A stretch of DNA of 33,943 bases from Acidobacteriota bacterium (GTDB lineage Bacteria; Acidobacteriota; Blastocatellia; Pyrinomonadales; Pyrinomonadaceae). The stretch spans positions 1 to 33,943 of the forward strand of contig JAJPKD010000121.1 in assembly GCA_021323895.1 (NCBI GenBank). The letters run 5' to 3'. A model generated the notes under the pieces. The model saw only the letters and a program-made list of their open reading frames with translations, was not told where the DNA came from and ran no database searches. Below are positions 12,447 to 28,092 of this stretch, one piece after another. Position numbers and translations under genes: made by a program. Positions within the stretch are counted from its first letter, which is position 1. Every line of letters begins with the position of its first letter.

Positions 12447-13385
12447 TTAGAAATCGCTTGCAGACGATGTCAATGTGATGGGGAAAGCGGTAGGCGCAAA
12501 TCGATTGCGGCCGATGGTTGTGTTCAGTAGTTCGCCGGCGAGCGGGACATCGAGCGCAAACAACGCGCGAATCGTGCTGCGCGGCGAAAGGTGGTCCTCA
12601 TCGGATGAATCGTCATCGACGCAGTTGTGCTCAAAGGCGCGCGCCAGGCGCCGCGGCAAAGGTTCCCAGCTGGCGGTCTGCGCGATGAATTCGCGCGCGG
12701 CCATTACGCCCACCCGGTCACACGATAATTCTTCGGCGCGTTGTCCCTGAATGCGCAGGTTGGTCCGAGCGGCAGCGCGTTGCGCGATGGCTCGGAAGAG
12801 CGGGCGAAGCGTGTCCGATGGACCACTGGCGATGTGCGTCAGTTCGTGCGCGAGCACGCTGACCATCGCTTCGTCTGAACGCAGACCGGCGAGAAAGATC
12901 GTGCCGAACTCGATCGTCCTTGGTTCGCGTAACACGACCGAAGCGTTATCGCGCGCGTCCACGTCCGGCTTGACCCGCTTGACGGATTGAACCCGCGCGA
13001 CCGTGGCATTGATCTTCGCCCGCGAGAGCGCAGTACCGTACAAGCCGTACTCCTTTGCCAGTTTCACGATTGCCTCGCCGACGAGTCTGCGCGTCGTCGG
13101 CAACAGGCGCTCGGCGCGCTGAGCCCCGCTGATCGCATCGGGATTGTTCACGGCCAGTGAAGGCCGCGATTGCATCTCATCAATCGGCATGCTGCCTTGC
13201 GGATCGCATATGCGTTCGGTGCAAGTTGCGCCAATCGCGCGCTCAACCAATTTGCGATCCGAAGCCGTGAAAGTATCGCGAGAAGATTTCGAGTGGGCGT
13301 CATTGCGGCGCTGGGTTTGGGCAAGGGAAGCCGCGTGAATGATACAAATGAGTATTGCACTGAAGACGCGGAGACGCGGAGACAT
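12447..13385 (-). CDS. M48-like zinc metallopeptidase, exported
   Basis: A 312-residue protein from ATG 13385 with a signal peptide (MSPRLRVFSAILICIIHAAS, cleavage near SLAQ). The zinc motif HELTH (His180, Glu181, His184) follows a hydrophobic helix (AMVSVLA), and EELSCDRVGVMAA about 37 residues later fits the third zinc ligand region (E-x-x-x-D-x-x-G) of M48 peptidases. M48 family members such as BepA work in envelope quality control; target unknown here. The first eight or so codons lie in an inverted repeat (13362-13443), so the signal-peptide N-terminus is built from repeat sequence. A start 24 residues upstream would overlap the crotonase gene and is less likely. Confidence 0.78.
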   Translation of the reverse strand: MSPRLRVFSAILICIIHAASLAQTQRRNDAHSKSSRDTFTASDRKLVERAIGATCTERICDPQGSMPIDEMQSRPSLAVNNPDAISGAQRAERLLPTTRRLVGEAIVKLAKEYGLYGTALSRAKINATVARVQSVKRVKPDVDARDNASVVLREPRTIEFGTIFLAGLRSDEAMVSVLAHELTHIASGPSDTLRPLFRAIAQRAAARTNLRIQGQRAEELSCDRVGVMAAREFIAQTASWEPLPRRLARAFEHNCVDDDSSDEDHLSPRSTIRALFALDVPLAGELLNTTIGRNRFAPTAFPITLTSSASDF

Positions 13386-13443
13386 GGCGACACGGTGAAG
13401 AGCAGTTCTCCCACTCTCCGCTTCTCCCTGTATCCGTGTCTTC
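13362..13443. repeat. Inverted repeat D between the peptidase and crotonase genes
   Basis: The left arm begins GAAGACGCGGAGACGCGGAG (13362 onward) and the right arm ends in CCGTGTCTTC (13443); the reverse complement of the right arm begins GAAGACACGGATAC, so the outer 25-28 bases pair with several mismatches. The left arm itself is a short tandem of CGGAGACG. The element covers the first codons of the M48-like peptidase and touches the stop codon of the crotonase gene (13442-13444). Confidence 0.6.
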
Positions 13444-14221
13444 ATCGATTTCGCCACTCAGGTTTTCGCTTTTCCATGAACGAACGCAAACCTTCGTTCG
13501 CGTCCTCAGTCTTCATCAACTCGTCCAAGTATAGATTCTCAACCGGTTGCAGGGAATCAGAGAATTTCGTTCCGCCCGCGACTTCGATTGCGCGTCGCGT
13601 CATGGCCAACGACGACGCGGACAGGCCACGTAGCTTGGCCAGTACTTCATTCGTCTTTTCTTGAACGTTCGCGGCCGGCACGACATAGTTTGCGAGGCCA
13701 AGCCGCAGGGCTTCCGCAGCATCGATCGTATCGCCGGTCAGGATCATTTCGCGTGCCTTTTTCTCACCTATGATGCGCGGCAGCAGGATCGCAGCCACCG
13801 GCGGGAATACGCCGAGTTTGATTTCCGGCTGGCCGAACTTGGCGCGCTCGCTGGCGATAACGATGTCGCAGGCCGCGACCAGTTCGCAGCCACCACCCAG
13901 CGCGGCGCCCTCAACGACGGCGATCGCCGGGCGCGAAATCTGATTGAGCTTGCGAAAGATGTTGTGAAATGAATCGAGCATCTCGACGACAGTCTCCGGC
14001 ACATGCTCTTCGACCGCGACGCCGGCGCAGAATGCGCGCGACCCCTCCGCCGCATCGAACACGATTGCGACGAGATCGGTTTGCTGAGCGCGTTCATTCA
14101 GTGCATCACCCACCTCACGCATCATTGCGATGTTCAGGACGTTGAGCGGCGGCCGGGCGAAAGTGATGCGCGCCACACGATCGTCAATCGTGAACTTGAT
14201 GTTTGGAAATTCCGGCGTCAT
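13442..14221 (-). CDS. Enoyl-CoA hydratase/isomerase (crotonase) family protein
   Basis: A 259-residue crotonase of normal length. Oxyanion-hole segments are AFCAGVAVEEH (63-73) and GAALGGGCEL (105-114). Both catalytic glutamates expected for a hydratase are present, Glu113 in GGGCEL and Glu133 in FGQPEIKLG. The stretch after it reads VFPPVAAILLPRIIG where classical fatty-acid hydratases have IPGAGGTQRL; this variant is seen in some hydratases acting on cyclic or other acyl-CoA thioesters, so beta-oxidation is not certain. No other acyl-CoA genes are adjacent. The start ATG 14221 fits the family N-terminus (first beta strand IKFTIDDRVARITF). Confidence 0.88.
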   Translation of the reverse strand: MTPEFPNIKFTIDDRVARITFARPPLNVLNIAMMREVGDALNERAQQTDLVAIVFDAAEGSRAFCAGVAVEEHVPETVVEMLDSFHNIFRKLNQISRPAIAVVEGAALGGGCELVAACDIVIASERAKFGQPEIKLGVFPPVAAILLPRIIGEKKAREMILTGDTIDAAEALRLGLANYVVPAANVQEKTNEVLAKLRGLSASSLAMTRRAIEVAGGTKFSDSLQPVENLYLDELMKTEDANEGLRSFMEKRKPEWRNR

Positions 14222-16376: not shown

Positions 16377-16397
16377 GTTGTGGCTCCTGTGGCGGTC

Positions 16398-16489
16398 GTG
16401 TCAGAAGCCCAACCGTTAGGGAGGGCCGCTCTGAACACTCACGCGAGTGATAGAGATGGTGCCCTCCCTGACGGTCGGGCTTCTGGCAC
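16398..16489. repeat. Palindromic repeat family A, copy 1 (92 bp)
   Basis: The left arm (16398-16426) begins GTGTCAGAAGCCC and the right arm (16461-16489) ends GGGCTTCTGGCAC; the 29-base arms pair at 26 positions. The 34-base loop contains its own small hairpin CACTC-ACGC-GAGTG (16436-16449). Both arms are of the same type (ACCGTTAGGGAGGGC-like). It lies between the S9 peptidase and the second LolA-like gene. Two related copies lie at 20891 and 26790. Confidence 0.85.
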
Positions 16490-16507
16490 GCAAGCCGACA
16501 GCTTGCG
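16489..16507. repeat. Palindrome family C, copy 1
   Basis: CGCAAGCCGACAGCTTGCG is a 19-base near-perfect palindrome (arms CGCAAGC and GCTTGCG). It starts at the last base of family A copy 1 and ends directly against the TGA stop of the LolA-like gene (16508-16510, minus strand), so it could act as its 3' hairpin. It has the same outer frame and near-identical loop as the two palindromes at 28031 and 28070. Confidence 0.6.
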
Positions 16508-20880: not shown

Positions 20881-23109
20881 ATGCGCAAGCGTGTCAGAGG
20901 CCTGCGCGTAAGCAAGGGCTCCATCCCCAAGCGAGCCCTCCCTTACGGTCGGGCTTCTGACACCTCGCGTGCGCGCGCACTTCTCGTCCTCATTTGTCTT
21001 AACCTGGTTGCTTACCCTATTGCGACGTGTGGTCAGCGCCGCGCCATCGCGACTATCACGATCGACACTTCGCATCCGACGAATCGTTTCAGGCCCTCAC
21101 AGGCGTTGGGTGCAGCGATCGATGGCCATGAAAAAGGCTTCAACGATCTGCAACTCATGCCCGCCAACATTCAGGCCATGCAGTCCGCTGGATTCAAGTC
21201 GCTGACGTATCGTCTGCGCACGGAATTGGCCGGCGACGTTTGGCATTGGAATCCCGCAGGGACGTGGAGTGAATCGCAATCAAAACAAGGATATTGGACT
21301 TCGGATGCGAAACTGGGCGCGCCGATCGCGTTTTCGTATGGGTACAGTTTGCCGCGGCGCGGCAACACCATCGATCAAGCGACGAACGCAGGTTACTCGC
21401 GCATCGATGACGGCGACACTCAGACGTTTTGGAAAAGTAATCCTTATCTCGATCGGCATTTCACGGGCGAAGACAACGCGCTACATCCGCAATGGATCGT
21501 CATTGATTTTGAAAAGCCGGTCTCGATCAACGCATTGCGTTTGGTGTGGGGCGAGCCATTCGCGACCGCTTATCGCGTTCAGTACGGCAACTTTGATGAT
21601 GTCAGTGACATTGCTTTGAGTCCGCCGGGAACCTGGCAAGACTTTCCGCTCGGGAAGATTCCCGCGGGCGTTGGTCGTCTGCTGTCTAAAGATGGAAAGG
21701 TGCCGTTGAGAATTTCAAATGTCCCTGTCAAGCTTCGGTGGCTTCGCATTCTATTGACGGAGTCCGCAGTTACCAGCGAGGGTTCGTCATCCGATATTCG
21801 CGATCGAGTCGGCTTTGCGCTGCGCGAACTTCATGCCGGTTATCAGGATAAGAAGGGCAACTTTCACGATCGCCTGCGCCACGGAAAATCTCAGAAACAG
21901 CAAACAATCATTTACGTTTCTTCGACTGATCCATGGCATCGCGAATGTGACTTGCACGAAGGCGTGGAGCAAGTTGGTCTGGATCGAATCTACCAAACCG
22001 GGCTGACGAACAATCTGCCGATGCTGCTGCCGACGGGTTTGCTTTACGACACGCCTGAGAACGCAGCGAACGAAATTGGTTACTTGCGCGCGCGTGGCTA
22101 CAAGTTCGATCAGGTTGAGCTCGGTGAGGAGCCAGACGGGCAGTACGTCACTCCGGAAGATTTCGGCGCGCTTTACCTGCAATTCGCCGATGCGATTCAT
22201 CAAGTGGACAAGTCGGTGAAAGTCGGTGGCCCAAGTTTTCAGGAAATCATTTGGGACCGAGAGGTGCCATCAAATCGCGGGAACGGTGCCTGGATGCAGC
22301 GGTTTCTGGATTACTTGAAAAAGCGTGGGAGCTCACAAGACTTCTCGTTCTTCTCGTTTGAGTGGTATCCGTTCGATGACGTTTGCGAAGCGACGGCACC
22401 GCAACTCGCGGAAGCGACAAAGCTGCTGGATGATGCAGTCCAACAGATGCGACGCCGCGGTGTGCCGCAAGACATTCCCTGGATCATTTCCGAATACGGG
22501 TATTCGGCATTCGCGGCGCGCGCCGAGATCGATATCGAAGGCGCGTTGCTGAACGCGGACATTGTTGGAAAGTTTCTGACGCTTGGCGGTGACCAGACAT
22601 TCTTGTTCGGCTACACACCGGCCGAGATGTTGCGCGAAGTGCCGTGCACGACCGGCAACAACATGATGTTTTCGATGGATGACGATGGCAACATCACGCA
22701 CCGGTTCGCGACTTACTTTGGCGCGCGGCTGTTGACGCAGGAATGGGTGAAACCCGGCGATGAGGTTCACGAAATATTTGCGGCGAGTTCGAATGTTCGT
22801 GATGCGGACGGAAACGAGGTTGTCACGGCCTACGCTGTTCGTCGTCCAGATGGATTATGGTCGGTGCTGCTGATCAATAAAGATCCGAAGCGTGAAGTTG
22901 CGGCGGCATTGGTTACGAAGGGTGGGCTTCGCACTTTCCACGCCGGTTACGACGTTTACCAATATTCATCGGACCAGTACGCACTTGGAGGAAGCGCCAC
23001 GAATCCCTACCCGATTAGAGCGAATGAGCCGGCGCACTCGAAGGAAAGCTCTACTTTGATCGTGCTACCACCATATTCGTTGACGGTAGTGCGCGGAAGG
23101 CTAAATTGA
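20881..23109 (+). CDS. Exported clan-A glycoside-hydrolase-like protein with a nested discoidin-like domain
   Basis: A 742-residue protein whose ATG directly follows the DUF1800 stop. Residues 4-28 are encoded by palindromic repeat A copy 2; a hydrophobic signal segment follows (ARALLVLICLNLVAYPIATC, about 32-51). Residues 60-120 look like the first part of a TIM barrel (GAAIDGHEKGFNDLQLMP, SAGFKSLTYRLRTEL). Residues about 145-300 resemble an F5/8C (discoidin, CBM32-like) domain (QWIVIDFEKPVSINALRLVW, WLRILLTES). The barrel resumes at about 305; Glu416/417 in ELGEEPDGQY and Glu538 in IISEYGYSA, 120 residues apart, match the acid/base and nucleophile on strands 4 and 7 of clan GH-A. A C-terminal beta domain follows (SVLLINKDPKREV, LPPYSLTVVRG). 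Substrate unknown; GH39-like is my closest guess. The 3' end overlaps hutH by 9 bases (convergent). Confidence 0.75.
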   Translation: MRKRVRGLRVSKGSIPKRALPYGRASDTSRARALLVLICLNLVAYPIATCGQRRAIATITIDTSHPTNRFRPSQALGAAIDGHEKGFNDLQLMPANIQAMQSAGFKSLTYRLRTELAGDVWHWNPAGTWSESQSKQGYWTSDAKLGAPIAFSYGYSLPRRGNTIDQATNAGYSRIDDGDTQTFWKSNPYLDRHFTGEDNALHPQWIVIDFEKPVSINALRLVWGEPFATAYRVQYGNFDDVSDIALSPPGTWQDFPLGKIPAGVGRLLSKDGKVPLRISNVPVKLRWLRILLTESAVTSEGSSSDIRDRVGFALRELHAGYQDKKGNFHDRLRHGKSQKQQTIIYVSSTDPWHRECDLHEGVEQVGLDRIYQTGLTNNLPMLLPTGLLYDTPENAANEIGYLRARGYKFDQVELGEEPDGQYVTPEDFGALYLQFADAIHQVDKSVKVGGPSFQEIIWDREVPSNRGNGAWMQRFLDYLKKRGSSQDFSFFSFEWYPFDDVCEATAPQLAEATKLLDDAVQQMRRRGVPQDIPWIISEYGYSAFAARAEIDIEGALLNADIVGKFLTLGGDQTFLFGYTPAEMLREVPCTTGNNMMFSMDDDGNITHRFATYFGARLLTQEWVKPGDEVHEIFAASSNVRDADGNEVVTAYAVRRPDGLWSVLLINKDPKREVAAALVTKGGLRTFHAGYDVYQYSSDQYALGGSATNPYPIRANEPAHSKESSTLIVLPPYSLTVVRGRLN
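20891..20963. repeat. Palindromic repeat family A, copy 2 (73 bp), inside a coding start
   Basis: The left arm (20891-20919) begins GTGTCAGAGGCC and the right arm (20935-20963) ends GGGCTTCTGACAC; the loop is 15 bases, the same length as in copy 3 but with a different sequence. The left arm is of the GCGCGTAAGCAAGGGC type and the right of the GCCCTCCCTTACGGTC type, as in copy 3. It starts 11 bases after the DUF1800 stop and encodes residues 4-28 of the next protein. No in-frame ATG, GTG or TTG occurs between it and the signal segment. Confidence 0.85.
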
Positions 23110-25908: not shown

Positions 25909-26397
25909 ATGTTGGCTGTGCAAAGCGCATCACCGAAAGAGCACGAGCGTTGGATGCACGAAGCGTTGCGCGCCGCCCGCGAGGCCTGGGAACGCGATGA
26001 AGTTCCCATCGGAACATGTATCGTCGTCGGCGACGAGGTGGTTGCGCTGGCGGGAAATCGCACGCGCACCGATTGTGATCCGACAGCGCACGCAGAGATC
26101 ATCGCTTTGCGCGAAGCGGCTGCGCGAGTCGGCAACTACCGGCTGACACACGCGGTTGTCTATTCGACGATCGAGCCTTGTGCGATGTGCGCCGGCGCGC
26201 TGATTCAGGCGCGCGTGCCCTTGCTGGTTTATGGCGCGGCGGACGAAAAGGCGGGCGCCGTGGAATCGCATTTCGGGATTTGTGACGCGCCGCATTTGAA
26301 CCATCGCGTCGAAGTTGTCAAAGGCGTTCTGGAAGCTGAATGCCGAGAGTTGATGCAGGAGTTTTTTCAGAGGAAGAGGTCAGAGATTAGAGGTTAG
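25909..26397 (+). CDS. tadA: tRNA-specific adenosine deaminase TadA
   Basis: A 162-residue zinc deaminase that converts A34 to inosine in tRNA-Arg(ACG), needed to decode CGN codons. The zinc site is complete: His61 and catalytic Glu63 in HAEI, and Cys91/Cys94 in PCAMC. AGNRTRTDCDPTAHAE and the C-terminal helix (EAECRELMQEFFQRKR) are typical. ATG 25909 is preferred; an upstream TTG at 25900 would add three residues. The last seven codons (KRSEIRG and stop) lie in the left arm of repeat family B, so the natural C-terminus appears to have been rewritten by the repeat. Two tRNA-Ser genes, the SRP RNA gene and dnaX follow downstream. Confidence 0.94.
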   Translation: MLAVQSASPKEHERWMHEALRAAREAWERDEVPIGTCIVVGDEVVALAGNRTRTDCDPTAHAEIIALREAAARVGNYRLTHAVVYSTIEPCAMCAGALIQARVPLLVYGAADEKAGAVESHFGICDAPHLNHRVEVVKGVLEAECRELMQEFFQRKRSEIRG

Positions 26398-26503
26398 AGA
26401 TTAGTCGTATTGCATGAGTTTCGTCTGAACAATTTGACGTGCCCAGTTCCTTATGCATGATTTTGGAGATAGGCAAACTGACCTCTAACCTCTAATCTCT
26501 AAC
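26376..26503. repeat. Inverted repeat family B, copy 1, overlapping the tadA stop
   Basis: The left arm (about 26376-26404) reads GAGGTCAGAGATTAGAGGTT then AGAGATTAG; the right arm (about 26478-26503) reads CTGACCTCTAACCTCTAATC then TCTAAC. The reverse complement of the right arm shares AGAGATTAGAGGTTAGAG with the left. The arms are about 73 bases apart. The left arm covers the end of tadA, and a likely tRNA promoter lies between the arms. Confidence 0.6.
26434..26461 (+). promoter_or_regulatory. Possible promoter for the tRNA-Ser genes
   Basis: TTGACG (26434-26439) and CATGAT (26456-26461) are 16 bases apart. Transcription would begin about 50 bases before tRNA-Ser(CGA). The -10 box matches TATAAT at only four positions, so the call is tentative. 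Confidence 0.4.
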
Positions 26504-26517
26504 ATCGGTGTTAACGC

Positions 26518-26607
<90 letters not shown>

Positions 26608-26615
26608 TTTGATGC

Positions 26616-26686
26616 AGAGGTTAGAGGTCAGAGGCTAGAGGCTAGTCAAAATCAGGTTCTAGCCTCTAGTCTCTAACCTCTAGTCT
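26616..26686. repeat. Inverted repeat family B, copy 2, between the two tRNA-Ser genes
   Basis: The left arm (26616-26645) begins AGAGGTTAGAGGTCAGAGGC and ends TAG; the right arm (26659-26686) begins CTAGCCTCTAGTCTCTAACC and ends TCTAGTCT. The reverse complement of the right arm has the AGAGGTTAGAGACTAGAGGC pattern, so the arms pair well around a 13-base loop. The arm sequence is related to, but not the same as, copy 1 (AGAGGTTAGAG core shared). Confidence 0.6.
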
Positions 26687-26697
26687 ACCGGCTTCGT

Positions 26698-26787
26698 GGA
26701 AAGGTGCAGGAGTGGTTGAACTGGCAGCACTGGAAATGCTGTGAACGGGAAACCGTTCCGTGGGTTCGAATCCCACCCTTTCCGCCA
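26698..26787 (+). tRNA. tRNA-Ser (anticodon GGA)
   Basis: The 90-base class II tRNA has acceptor stem GGAAAGG (26698-26704) with CCTTTCC (26777-26783), discriminator G and encoded CCA (26785-26787). The anticodon arm CAGCA-CTGGAAA-TGCTG gives anticodon GGA, reading UCC and UCU. The variable arm has a GAACGG/CCGTTC stem. The T arm GTGGGTTCGAATCCCAC is identical to that of the upstream serine tRNA. Palindromic repeat A copy 3 begins three bases after the CCA. Confidence 0.95.
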
Positions 26788-26789
26788 TT

Positions 26790-26862
26790 GTGTCAGAAGC
26801 CCGCGCGTGAGCAAGGGCTCATTTGATAAACTAGCCCTCCCTAACGGTCGGGCTTCTGACAC
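26790..26862. repeat. Palindromic repeat family A, copy 3 (73 bp), beside a tRNA 3' end
   Basis: The left arm (26790-26818) begins GTGTCAGAAGCCCGCGCGTG and the right arm (26834-26862) ends TCGGGCTTCTGACAC; the loop is 15 bases. Arm types match copy 2 (left GCGCGTGAGCAAGGGC, right GCCCTCCCTAACGGTC). It starts three bases after the CCA of tRNA-Ser(GGA) and may serve as the 3' hairpin of that transcript. Confidence 0.85.
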
Positions 26863-26919
26863 GATCGTTTGATCTTAACAACTCCCCAACATTTCGATCG
26901 CAAAAGGATCTGTAGGCAA

Positions 26920-28026: not shown

Positions 28027-28092
28027 GTGGCGCAAATTGTCAATTTGCGGACTGTGTGGGGTGAGCATTCGCAAATTAACAATTTGCGCTAC
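28027..28092. repeat. Paired palindromes, family C copies 2 and 3
   Basis: CGCAAATTGTCAATTTGCG (28031-28049) and CGCAAATTAACAATTTGCG (28070-28088) are each 19-base palindromes with 8-bp arms and a 3-base loop. The flanks (GTGG before the first, CTAC after the second) make the pair itself inverted. They lie between the YggT gene and the SRP RNA promoter and may end transcription of yggT. Confidence 0.65.

Follow-up and report, generated by a model that had tools for sequence, protein, structure and literature searches.

An octamer hairpin at a crotonase-peptidase junction in Pyrinomonadaceae: one copy of a dispersed repeat family, probably read as an N-terminal leader

Hairpin and tandem-repeat systems closest to the element

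Palindromic repeats in frame with protein genes are known above all from Rickettsia, whose palindromic elements (RPE) are described, in passages of two publications, as palindromes of ~150 bp that lie in frame in genes for unrelated proteins, with ten families in a single genome (PMC10969869, PMC3733652); a passage of a 2024 review calls RPE-like protein evolution in other prokaryotes "conceivable" (PMC10969869). For Xanthomonas and Nostoc, part of another article describes short tandem units, the G-rich heptamers GGGAATC and GGGGA(T/C)T, which form 70 inverted pairs in Xcc and 75 in Xac and favor co-directional intergenic regions, on the sense strand and <50 bp from stop codons (PMC4692102); a word search of that article for "N-terminal" returned nothing. 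REPs, according to passages of two sources, supply stop codons to flanking genes and occur inside genes, and the different REPs near the same recB site in two Xanthomonas species provide a precedent for the use of one site by different repeats (PMC3733652, PMC3116915). Further passages describe dispersed inverted repeats, the TIRs of tyrosine transposases, in members of the same phylum, Acidobacteria such as Koribacter (PMC3733652), and, for Beggiatoaceae, TAACTGA repeats located close to start codons (PMC4679880).

We analyzed a stretch of 33,943 nucleotides from an Acidobacteriota bacterium of the Pyrinomonadaceae (contig JAJPKD010000121.1), hereafter the window, in which a hairpin of tandem octamers lies at the junction of a crotonase gene and a peptidase gene. 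The nearest known systems are the RPE for coding use and the Xanthomonas/Nostoc heptamers for architecture. As with the RPE, open frames run through hairpins in UvrA, in a membrane-protein loop, in a HAD hydrolase, and in a MauE-like protein, and these hairpins appear to be in-frame insertions; the likeness, judged from the descriptions of the RPE, is one of working and not of identity. The acidobacterial hairpins differ from the RPE in that their arms are tandem octamers or heptamers, their sites are N-termini, linkers, and one loop, their host is acidobacterial, and different families fill the same site in congeners. The G-rich heptamers have a quadruplex-forming 7-nt unit of the GGGNATC type. 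The unit of the element in the window is instead 8 nt long, GGAGACRC, and lacks GGG; here, moreover, many unit families occur per genome and reading as protein is central. It also differs from REP/REPIN, because its halves are tandem octamers and not palindromic singlets, GTAG is absent, and CGTC lies within the units and not as a terminal tag (judged by eye); the REP-like families of the same genome (G000) fit REP/REPIN better. The Koribacter-type TIRs are terminal repeats of transposase genes, unlike this element, and were set apart by description. Cyanobacterial short tandemly repeated repetitive (STRR) heptamers are intergenic arrays of period 7, whereas the present element has a period of 8 and belongs to another taxon. 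A literature search for the literal repeat strings returned no match, and among the titles and abstract openings returned by searches of open-licence papers, none reported that hairpins of octamers or heptamers are read as protein in Acidobacteriota.

Anatomy of the octamer hairpin and the start of the peptidase

Table 1. Positions in the window of the octamer hairpin, its flanking genes, and other features mentioned in the text.
Feature	Position	Strand	Basis or remark
Whole octamer hairpin	13362..13443	.	fold, octamer register, genomic copies
Left half, 5 degenerate octamers of GGAGACGC type	13362..13402	+	
Right half, octamer type as in left half	13403..13443	-	first arm in coding direction; encodes KTRIQGEAESGRT
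Crotonase (enoyl-CoA hydratase/isomerase family)	13442..14221	-	Pfam ECH_1, E 1.4e-53
Putative exported HExxH metallopeptidase	12447..13445	-	signal-peptide-like N-terminus; no Pfam family above cut-off
Likely peptidase start ATG, overlapping the crotonase stop as ATGA	13443..13445	-	suggested by congener G006
Alternative start ATG (MSPRLRVFSAILICIIHAASLAQ), start of the first-pass annotation	13383..13385	-	
REP-like hairpin read as N-terminus (MRKRVRGLRVSKGSIPKRALPYGRASDTSRARALLVLICL) of ORF 20881-23109	20891..20963	+	no start codon within next 90 nt
Two tRNA-Ser genes beside hairpins	26518-26607, 26698-26787		
Two heptamer (AGAGGTT) hairpins and one REP-like hairpin, alternating with the two tRNA-Ser genes	26376-26506, 26622-26682, 26787-26865		
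Strong non-periodic hairpins between co-directional genes	16397-16490, 28027-28092		

The element consists of two 41-nt half-arrays that are mutually reverse complementary, each with five degenerate copies of the unit GGAGAC(R)C; it starts at the stop codon of the crotonase and extends into the gene for the peptidase. On the coding (-) strand, the left half forms the pyrimidine-rich second arm, the end of which encodes SPRLRVF. Folded in isolation, segment 13355-13450 reached -39 kcal/mol, where shuffles averaged -26.8 (z -3.75; 0 of 200 shuffles as good), and its opposite strand gave a z of -2.68 (1 of 200 as good). The fit of the two halves to the octamer register was 0.87 and 0.84, whereas the best of 2000 shuffles of each half scored 0.68 and 0.71. 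The first-pass annotation had described an imperfect inverted repeat spanning the two genes and ending at the crotonase stop; the observation is confirmed, its coordinates and peptide were right, and the right end of the element covers 2 nt of the stop codon (13444-13442). Scored as a plain ungapped stem, with several mismatches, the element reached a modest 11-12, below both cut-offs used in our genome scans (14 and 16), and it was absent from the list of a repeat finder at the settings used. An Rfam search yielded no family above the gathering score (the hits, two microRNA models with E 0.34 and 0.45, fell short of it), a plasmid collection yielded a single record with a partial match of 31 nt (E 0.09), which we regard as chance, and no target-site duplication, which together with the terminal inverted repeats of a parent transposon characterizes MITEs, was visible by eye at the borders.

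The HExxH motif of the peptidase and a downstream Glu pair were invariant in 18 aligned sequences. The earlier description "M48-like" agrees with the motif, but the label is weak, the Peptidase_M48 match (14 bits, E 0.046) lying under the Pfam cut-off of 20.3. Peptidase matches occurred in 23 of 97 genomes, and of 24 loci examined, 22 had the crotonase as well as the peptidase.

ATG 13445 and ATG 13385, the latter beginning MSPRLRVF, both lie in the peptidase frame, which is open from position -15 counted from the crotonase stop; no Shine-Dalgarno sequence was obvious by eye upstream of either codon. At the same junction in the congener G006, an octamer hairpin follows the ATGA, and ATG, GTG, and TTG are absent from the peptidase frame between the hairpin and the conserved domain. 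Production of the exported protein in G006 would therefore require translation of the hairpin. Parsimony favors ATG 13445 as the start in the window as well, so that the whole element is probably coding, beyond residues 1-8, and would form codons 2-28 ahead of the hydrophobic core SAILICIIHAASLAQ. The first-pass annotation had the repeat begin within residues 1-8 of the peptidase; translation of the left arm from ATG 13385 does give MSPRLRVF, but the real start probably lies upstream. Our own gene model set the start far downstream, at 13190, and gene models were consequently not taken as evidence on starts.

Octamer copies and same-site hairpins in the genome and its relatives

A search of G000 allowing 3 mismatches returned 25 hits, and a reversed control pattern returned 10. 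Since the control matched this often at the same stringency, three isolated 3-mismatch hits (C89, C230, and C252) were discarded as chance-level. Seven octamer clusters were accepted, in agreement with the earlier expectation that such arms recur in the genome, and all seven lie in uninterrupted open frames, four N-terminal and three internal. The N-terminal copies are those of the peptidase, of PurE, in which the arm supplies the start codon and MGRDGEQKL, of a MauE-like protein (MEADAEIGRAGDAGNFAVSPRPRASAS), and of a HAD hydrolase (MTGKQGDRETGRKSVSEEGLTISVSPNLRV). The internal copies lie in UvrA (NADVKTRRNGDGEKARNGNSPRRRVSASARH), in a loop of a 680-residue membrane protein with no Pfam match, where hydrophobic stretches flank the insert, and, as one arm, in a transpeptidase/SpoIID protein. 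Pfam domains start just past the inserts (HAD models from residue 29-32, MauE from 30, AIRC/PurE from 10), and the UvrA_inter match begins at residue 207 and at profile position 34 of 109, which places the UvrA insert at or in the N-terminal part of that domain. The repeat family of the element in the window is dispersed and occurs in Pyrinomonadaceae (Acidobacteriota). Among relatives, the reversed control beat the pattern in G058, G059, G065, G072, and G079, among others, and short exact matches alone were therefore not taken as proof of elements there. The SpoIID/transpeptidase ORF (G000 contig C109; L004, L130) also contains two non-periodic in-frame hairpins, one of them REP-like, in addition to its octamer arm.

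The crotonase-peptidase junction was compared in 30 distinct junctions drawn from 62 loci, the remainder being duplicates or missing one gene. A significant stem near the crotonase stop (0 of 100 shuffles reaching the best stem) was present in 13 and absent in 17 of these junctions. Eight hairpin sequence types were named by eye: octamers at L057 (the window), L062, L081, and L117; REP-like GCGGC..GCCGC hairpins at L059, L082, and L083; and, once each, GGATGAA, AAATGAC, ATTCATTG, AATGATGA, CAGAGGCCA, and CAGTTTT units. Octamer arms were visible at L061 and L084 with a best stem that was not significant, and at L082, the single nested case, the REP-like element lies inside octamer arms. In the tree of the 30 junctions, the window's genome is sister to G004 (octamer versus GGATGAA) and G001 is sister to G003 (REP-like versus none), each with a support of 100/99. 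Among the loci compared, the first arm of the window was closest to the G006 arm at the same junction (31/34, score 28; next best 25), and this likeness suggests one ancestral junction octamer in the genus, which may afterwards have been replaced or lost. At L060 (G003), the sole element-free junction among congeners, the ATGA is one base out of the peptidase frame in the assembly. At a second gene junction, related species likewise differ in the heptamer family present (L096 and L117 versus L097). The co-occurrence of elements at conserved junctions was not significant over 69 pairwise junctions in ten genome pairs, and no clean pair of empty and filled sites with a target-site duplication was found.

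The strongest result came from the membrane-protein loop, where place, hairpin design, and frame are shared while the sequence families differ. All seven congeners, G000 included, have an in-frame hairpin there (0 of 300 shuffles each), and these hairpins represent four unrelated families: an octamer in G000, a REP-like GTCAGTACC in G004 and G003, GCAAAGG-type heptamers in G001, G005, and G006, and an AAAAGGT-type heptamer in G002. Outside the genus, the loop had a significant hairpin in none of the five genomes measured (nearest G011, 27 of 300 shuffles), two further genomes having offered no anchor for the alignment. The UvrA insert lies in a stretch that is hypervariable among 19 aligned genomes; of the 12 genomes measured, only G000 and G005 had significant hairpins (0 of 300 shuffles), both octamer, G012 reaching 1 of 300 with a 9-nt arm and the others being not significant. 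The HAD protein had matches in 11 other genomes; homology begins at residues 24-27, the end of the insert, in eight of them and extends into the leader in three (from residue 4 in G002, 10 in G063, and 19 in G005). Absence of a leader can be concluded from a short open frame (238 aa) in G004 and G001 only.

Translated hairpins, gene ends, and the origin of the element

Read-through N-termini, defined by no start within 90 nt past the element, numbered 19 in five genomes, several of these rows being doubtful gene models. By a simple rule, 11 of the 19 were signal- or anchor-like, compared with 466 of 1511 genes (31%; Fisher P 0.02) and with 93 of 266 genes starting after an element (P 0.05). 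The proposal of the first-pass annotation that the hairpin encodes the start of a signal peptide thus finds an enrichment in its favor, but the link is only modest. In two loci, the hydrophobic core itself is encoded by pyrimidine-rich arms (FCLLPFAFCLLF in L134, KFSLFIFQFLIFSAL in L124), and in L166 octamer arms encode prepilin-like leaders. The two L166 genes (12934-13026 and 13672-13788; G020) are neighbors, each with an octamer hairpin as leader ahead of GFTLIEL or GFTLLEL, the motif from which we take them to be prepilin-like. At L178 (18076-18220; G020), an octamer hairpin extends into the N-terminus of a protein that is presumably ArgC-like, given its GGSGYGG motif. At L189 (15448-16488; G002), three in-frame hairpins lie within one 532-aa ORF model, two of them encoding SPTVREG/SPTARED..ALPDGRASDT/ALPHGRASDT-type peptides, a motif also present in L130 (G000).

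Of 14 units in the tandem-array test, five are stop-free in six frames (two octamers, GCAAAGG, AGAAGGC, and the Xanthomonas GGGAATC), and the remaining nine, all heptamers, contain stops. A stop-free octamer would permit residence inside genes, and its open frame is therefore weak evidence of selection by itself. Being stop-free does not alone place hairpins in genes, because none of the ten hairpins open in six frames lay inside a gene model in the five genome samples. The argument is carried by the frame kept in conserved proteins and by the forced start in G006.

The genome statistics were obtained from sampled stretches with our own crude hexamer gene models (coding fraction 0.71-0.80). 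The 306-kb sample of G000 yielded 33 stems scoring at least 16, and the 400-kb samples of G006 and G020 yielded 41 and 160, respectively, while one dinucleotide shuffle per genome gave 0; at a score of at least 14, one shuffle for each of the five genomes gave 3 in G006, 1 in G020, and 0 in the other three. Arms were periodic (match of at least 0.6 at the best lag, mostly 7, 8, 9, or 14) in 15/33, 18/41, and 103/160 hairpins of G000, G006, and G020, respectively, against a shuffled-arm expectation of about 1, 1.4, and 14. In the same order, periodic hairpins lay over stop codons in 3/15, 5/18, and 26/103 cases (random 1.0, 1.7, and 5.9) and over modelled starts in 3, 0, and 6 (random 1.0, 1.5, and 7.0), and non-periodic hairpins lay over stop codons in 3/18, 3/23, and 1/57 (random 1.1, 1.6, and 3.7). 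Among co-directional hairpins of G020, 37 of 71 periodic and 0 of 32 non-periodic ones began -5 to +10 nt from the stop; the two classes showed no such contrast in G000 (5/11 versus 4/9) or G006 (4/11 versus 4/12). Relative to uniform gap placement, short-period hairpins near stops were in excess in G020 (12 of 30 informative versus 4.1; simulated P 0.0002) and G006 (4/7 versus 0.9), and G000 showed no excess (0/3). Gaps holding short-period elements were not unusually short compared with empty gaps in three genomes (P 0.32-0.36), and non-periodic elements of G020 occupied longer gaps (P 0.02).

By the same gene models, 177 of 234 sampled hairpins of all kinds were intergenic and 26 of 614 stems in the five samples lay wholly within gene models; the location of hairpins within genes represents no excess, because random placement gives 11.6/15 in G000. 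The asymmetry toward stops and not starts fits selection against disturbed start regions as well as targeting, and purifying selection on insertions would account for the positions without any preference. The earlier suggestion that hairpins settle at gene ends and become coding agrees with the open frames of the octamer copies, with the four N-terminal ones, and with the stop-codon excess in G020 and G006, but three of the seven copies are internal, G000 showed no such excess, and most sampled hairpins are intergenic; a preference for gene ends beyond tolerance is weakly shown. Matches to RAYT (Y1_Tnp), the gene with which REP/REPIN are associated, occurred in 50 of 60 genomes, with four in G000. 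The RAYT count was rejected as a driver of hairpin number, no relation being seen by eye across three genomes (4 genes and 160 stems in G020; 9 genes and 41 stems in G006).

The best overall explanation, which we consider reasonably probable, is that the element represents a single copy of a non-autonomous, dispersed hairpin repeat that was inserted in frame and is now an N-terminal leader. Its anatomy, its genomic copies, the open frames, the occupancy of the same sites by different families, and one nested case are direct observations; the mobility, order of events, translation, and function of octamer hairpins in this account are those that the sequences suggest. In the ancestor, the crotonase and peptidase genes would have been linked by an ATGA overlap, and the hairpin would have been inserted immediately past the start codon of the peptidase. 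Since every frame of the octamer is free of stops, the insert would have stayed open provided that its length was right, and it may have become an N-terminal leader ahead of the hydrophobic core of the signal peptide. Inserts would persist only at sites tolerant of length and sequence (N-termini, signal peptides, linkers, and cytoplasmic loops), and other hairpin families would refill these sites over time, probably by a new hairpin entering the loop of the old one, whose outer arms would then decay. A broader version, which we put forward tentatively as plausible but doubtful, is that in this bacterial family tolerant segments (signal-peptide n-regions, N-termini, inter-domain linkers, and cytoplasmic loops) constitute a docking set for many unrelated in-frame hairpin families that replace one another by nested insertion and decay, and that hypervariable protein parts are largely recycled hairpin DNA.

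It is unlikely that the octamers instead expanded in place by slippage, with the second arm copied by template switching and nothing mobile involved. Such an origin would suit the tandem arms, the varying unit number, and loops that by eye are unique to each copy, and also the arrangement at L117 and L084 (one five-genome clade), where octamer arms surround what appears to be the gene's own start with its n-region (MNIKATERTALRQ.., MKFKATERTALSQ..), the second arm being read after this n-region and ahead of the hydrophobic core. However, unit types recur at many loci and across species, CAGTTTT even keeping the order of its unit variants, arm polarity is uniform across the 22 two-arm octamer elements found (the other 24 of 46 clusters having one arm only), and these sites also harbor REP-like families, whose arms are non-periodic.

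We also assign a low probability to an RNA function, according to which a hairpin at the stop and start codons couples translation of the peptidase to that of the crotonase, or usefully slows ribosomes, so that structure is kept while families change. The stable fold with the start codon at the foot of its stem, the abutment of G020 short-period hairpins on stops, and the sharing of one site by unrelated hairpin sequences would all be expected from it; the 17 junctions with no significant stem, the several mismatches of the element, and the internal copies in UvrA and the membrane protein, which have no obvious translational logic, argue against it. Chance folding of a purine-rich, low-complexity junction, to which the low score as an ungapped stem might point, is very improbable, given an octamer register far beyond shuffles and a similar element at the orthologous G006 junction, and was rejected because of the genomic and family-wide copies.

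With the in-frame insertion of a dispersed hairpin repeat as the preferred explanation, the findings describe a lineage of soil bacteria whose ordinary enzymes appear to owe leaders and linkers to octamer and heptamer hairpins. The unrelated hairpins of the same design at the same spots in relatives suggest that repeats keep providing new leaders and linkers. Two questions thereby become testable, namely the origin of new signal peptides and linkers and the replacement of hairpin families at one site.
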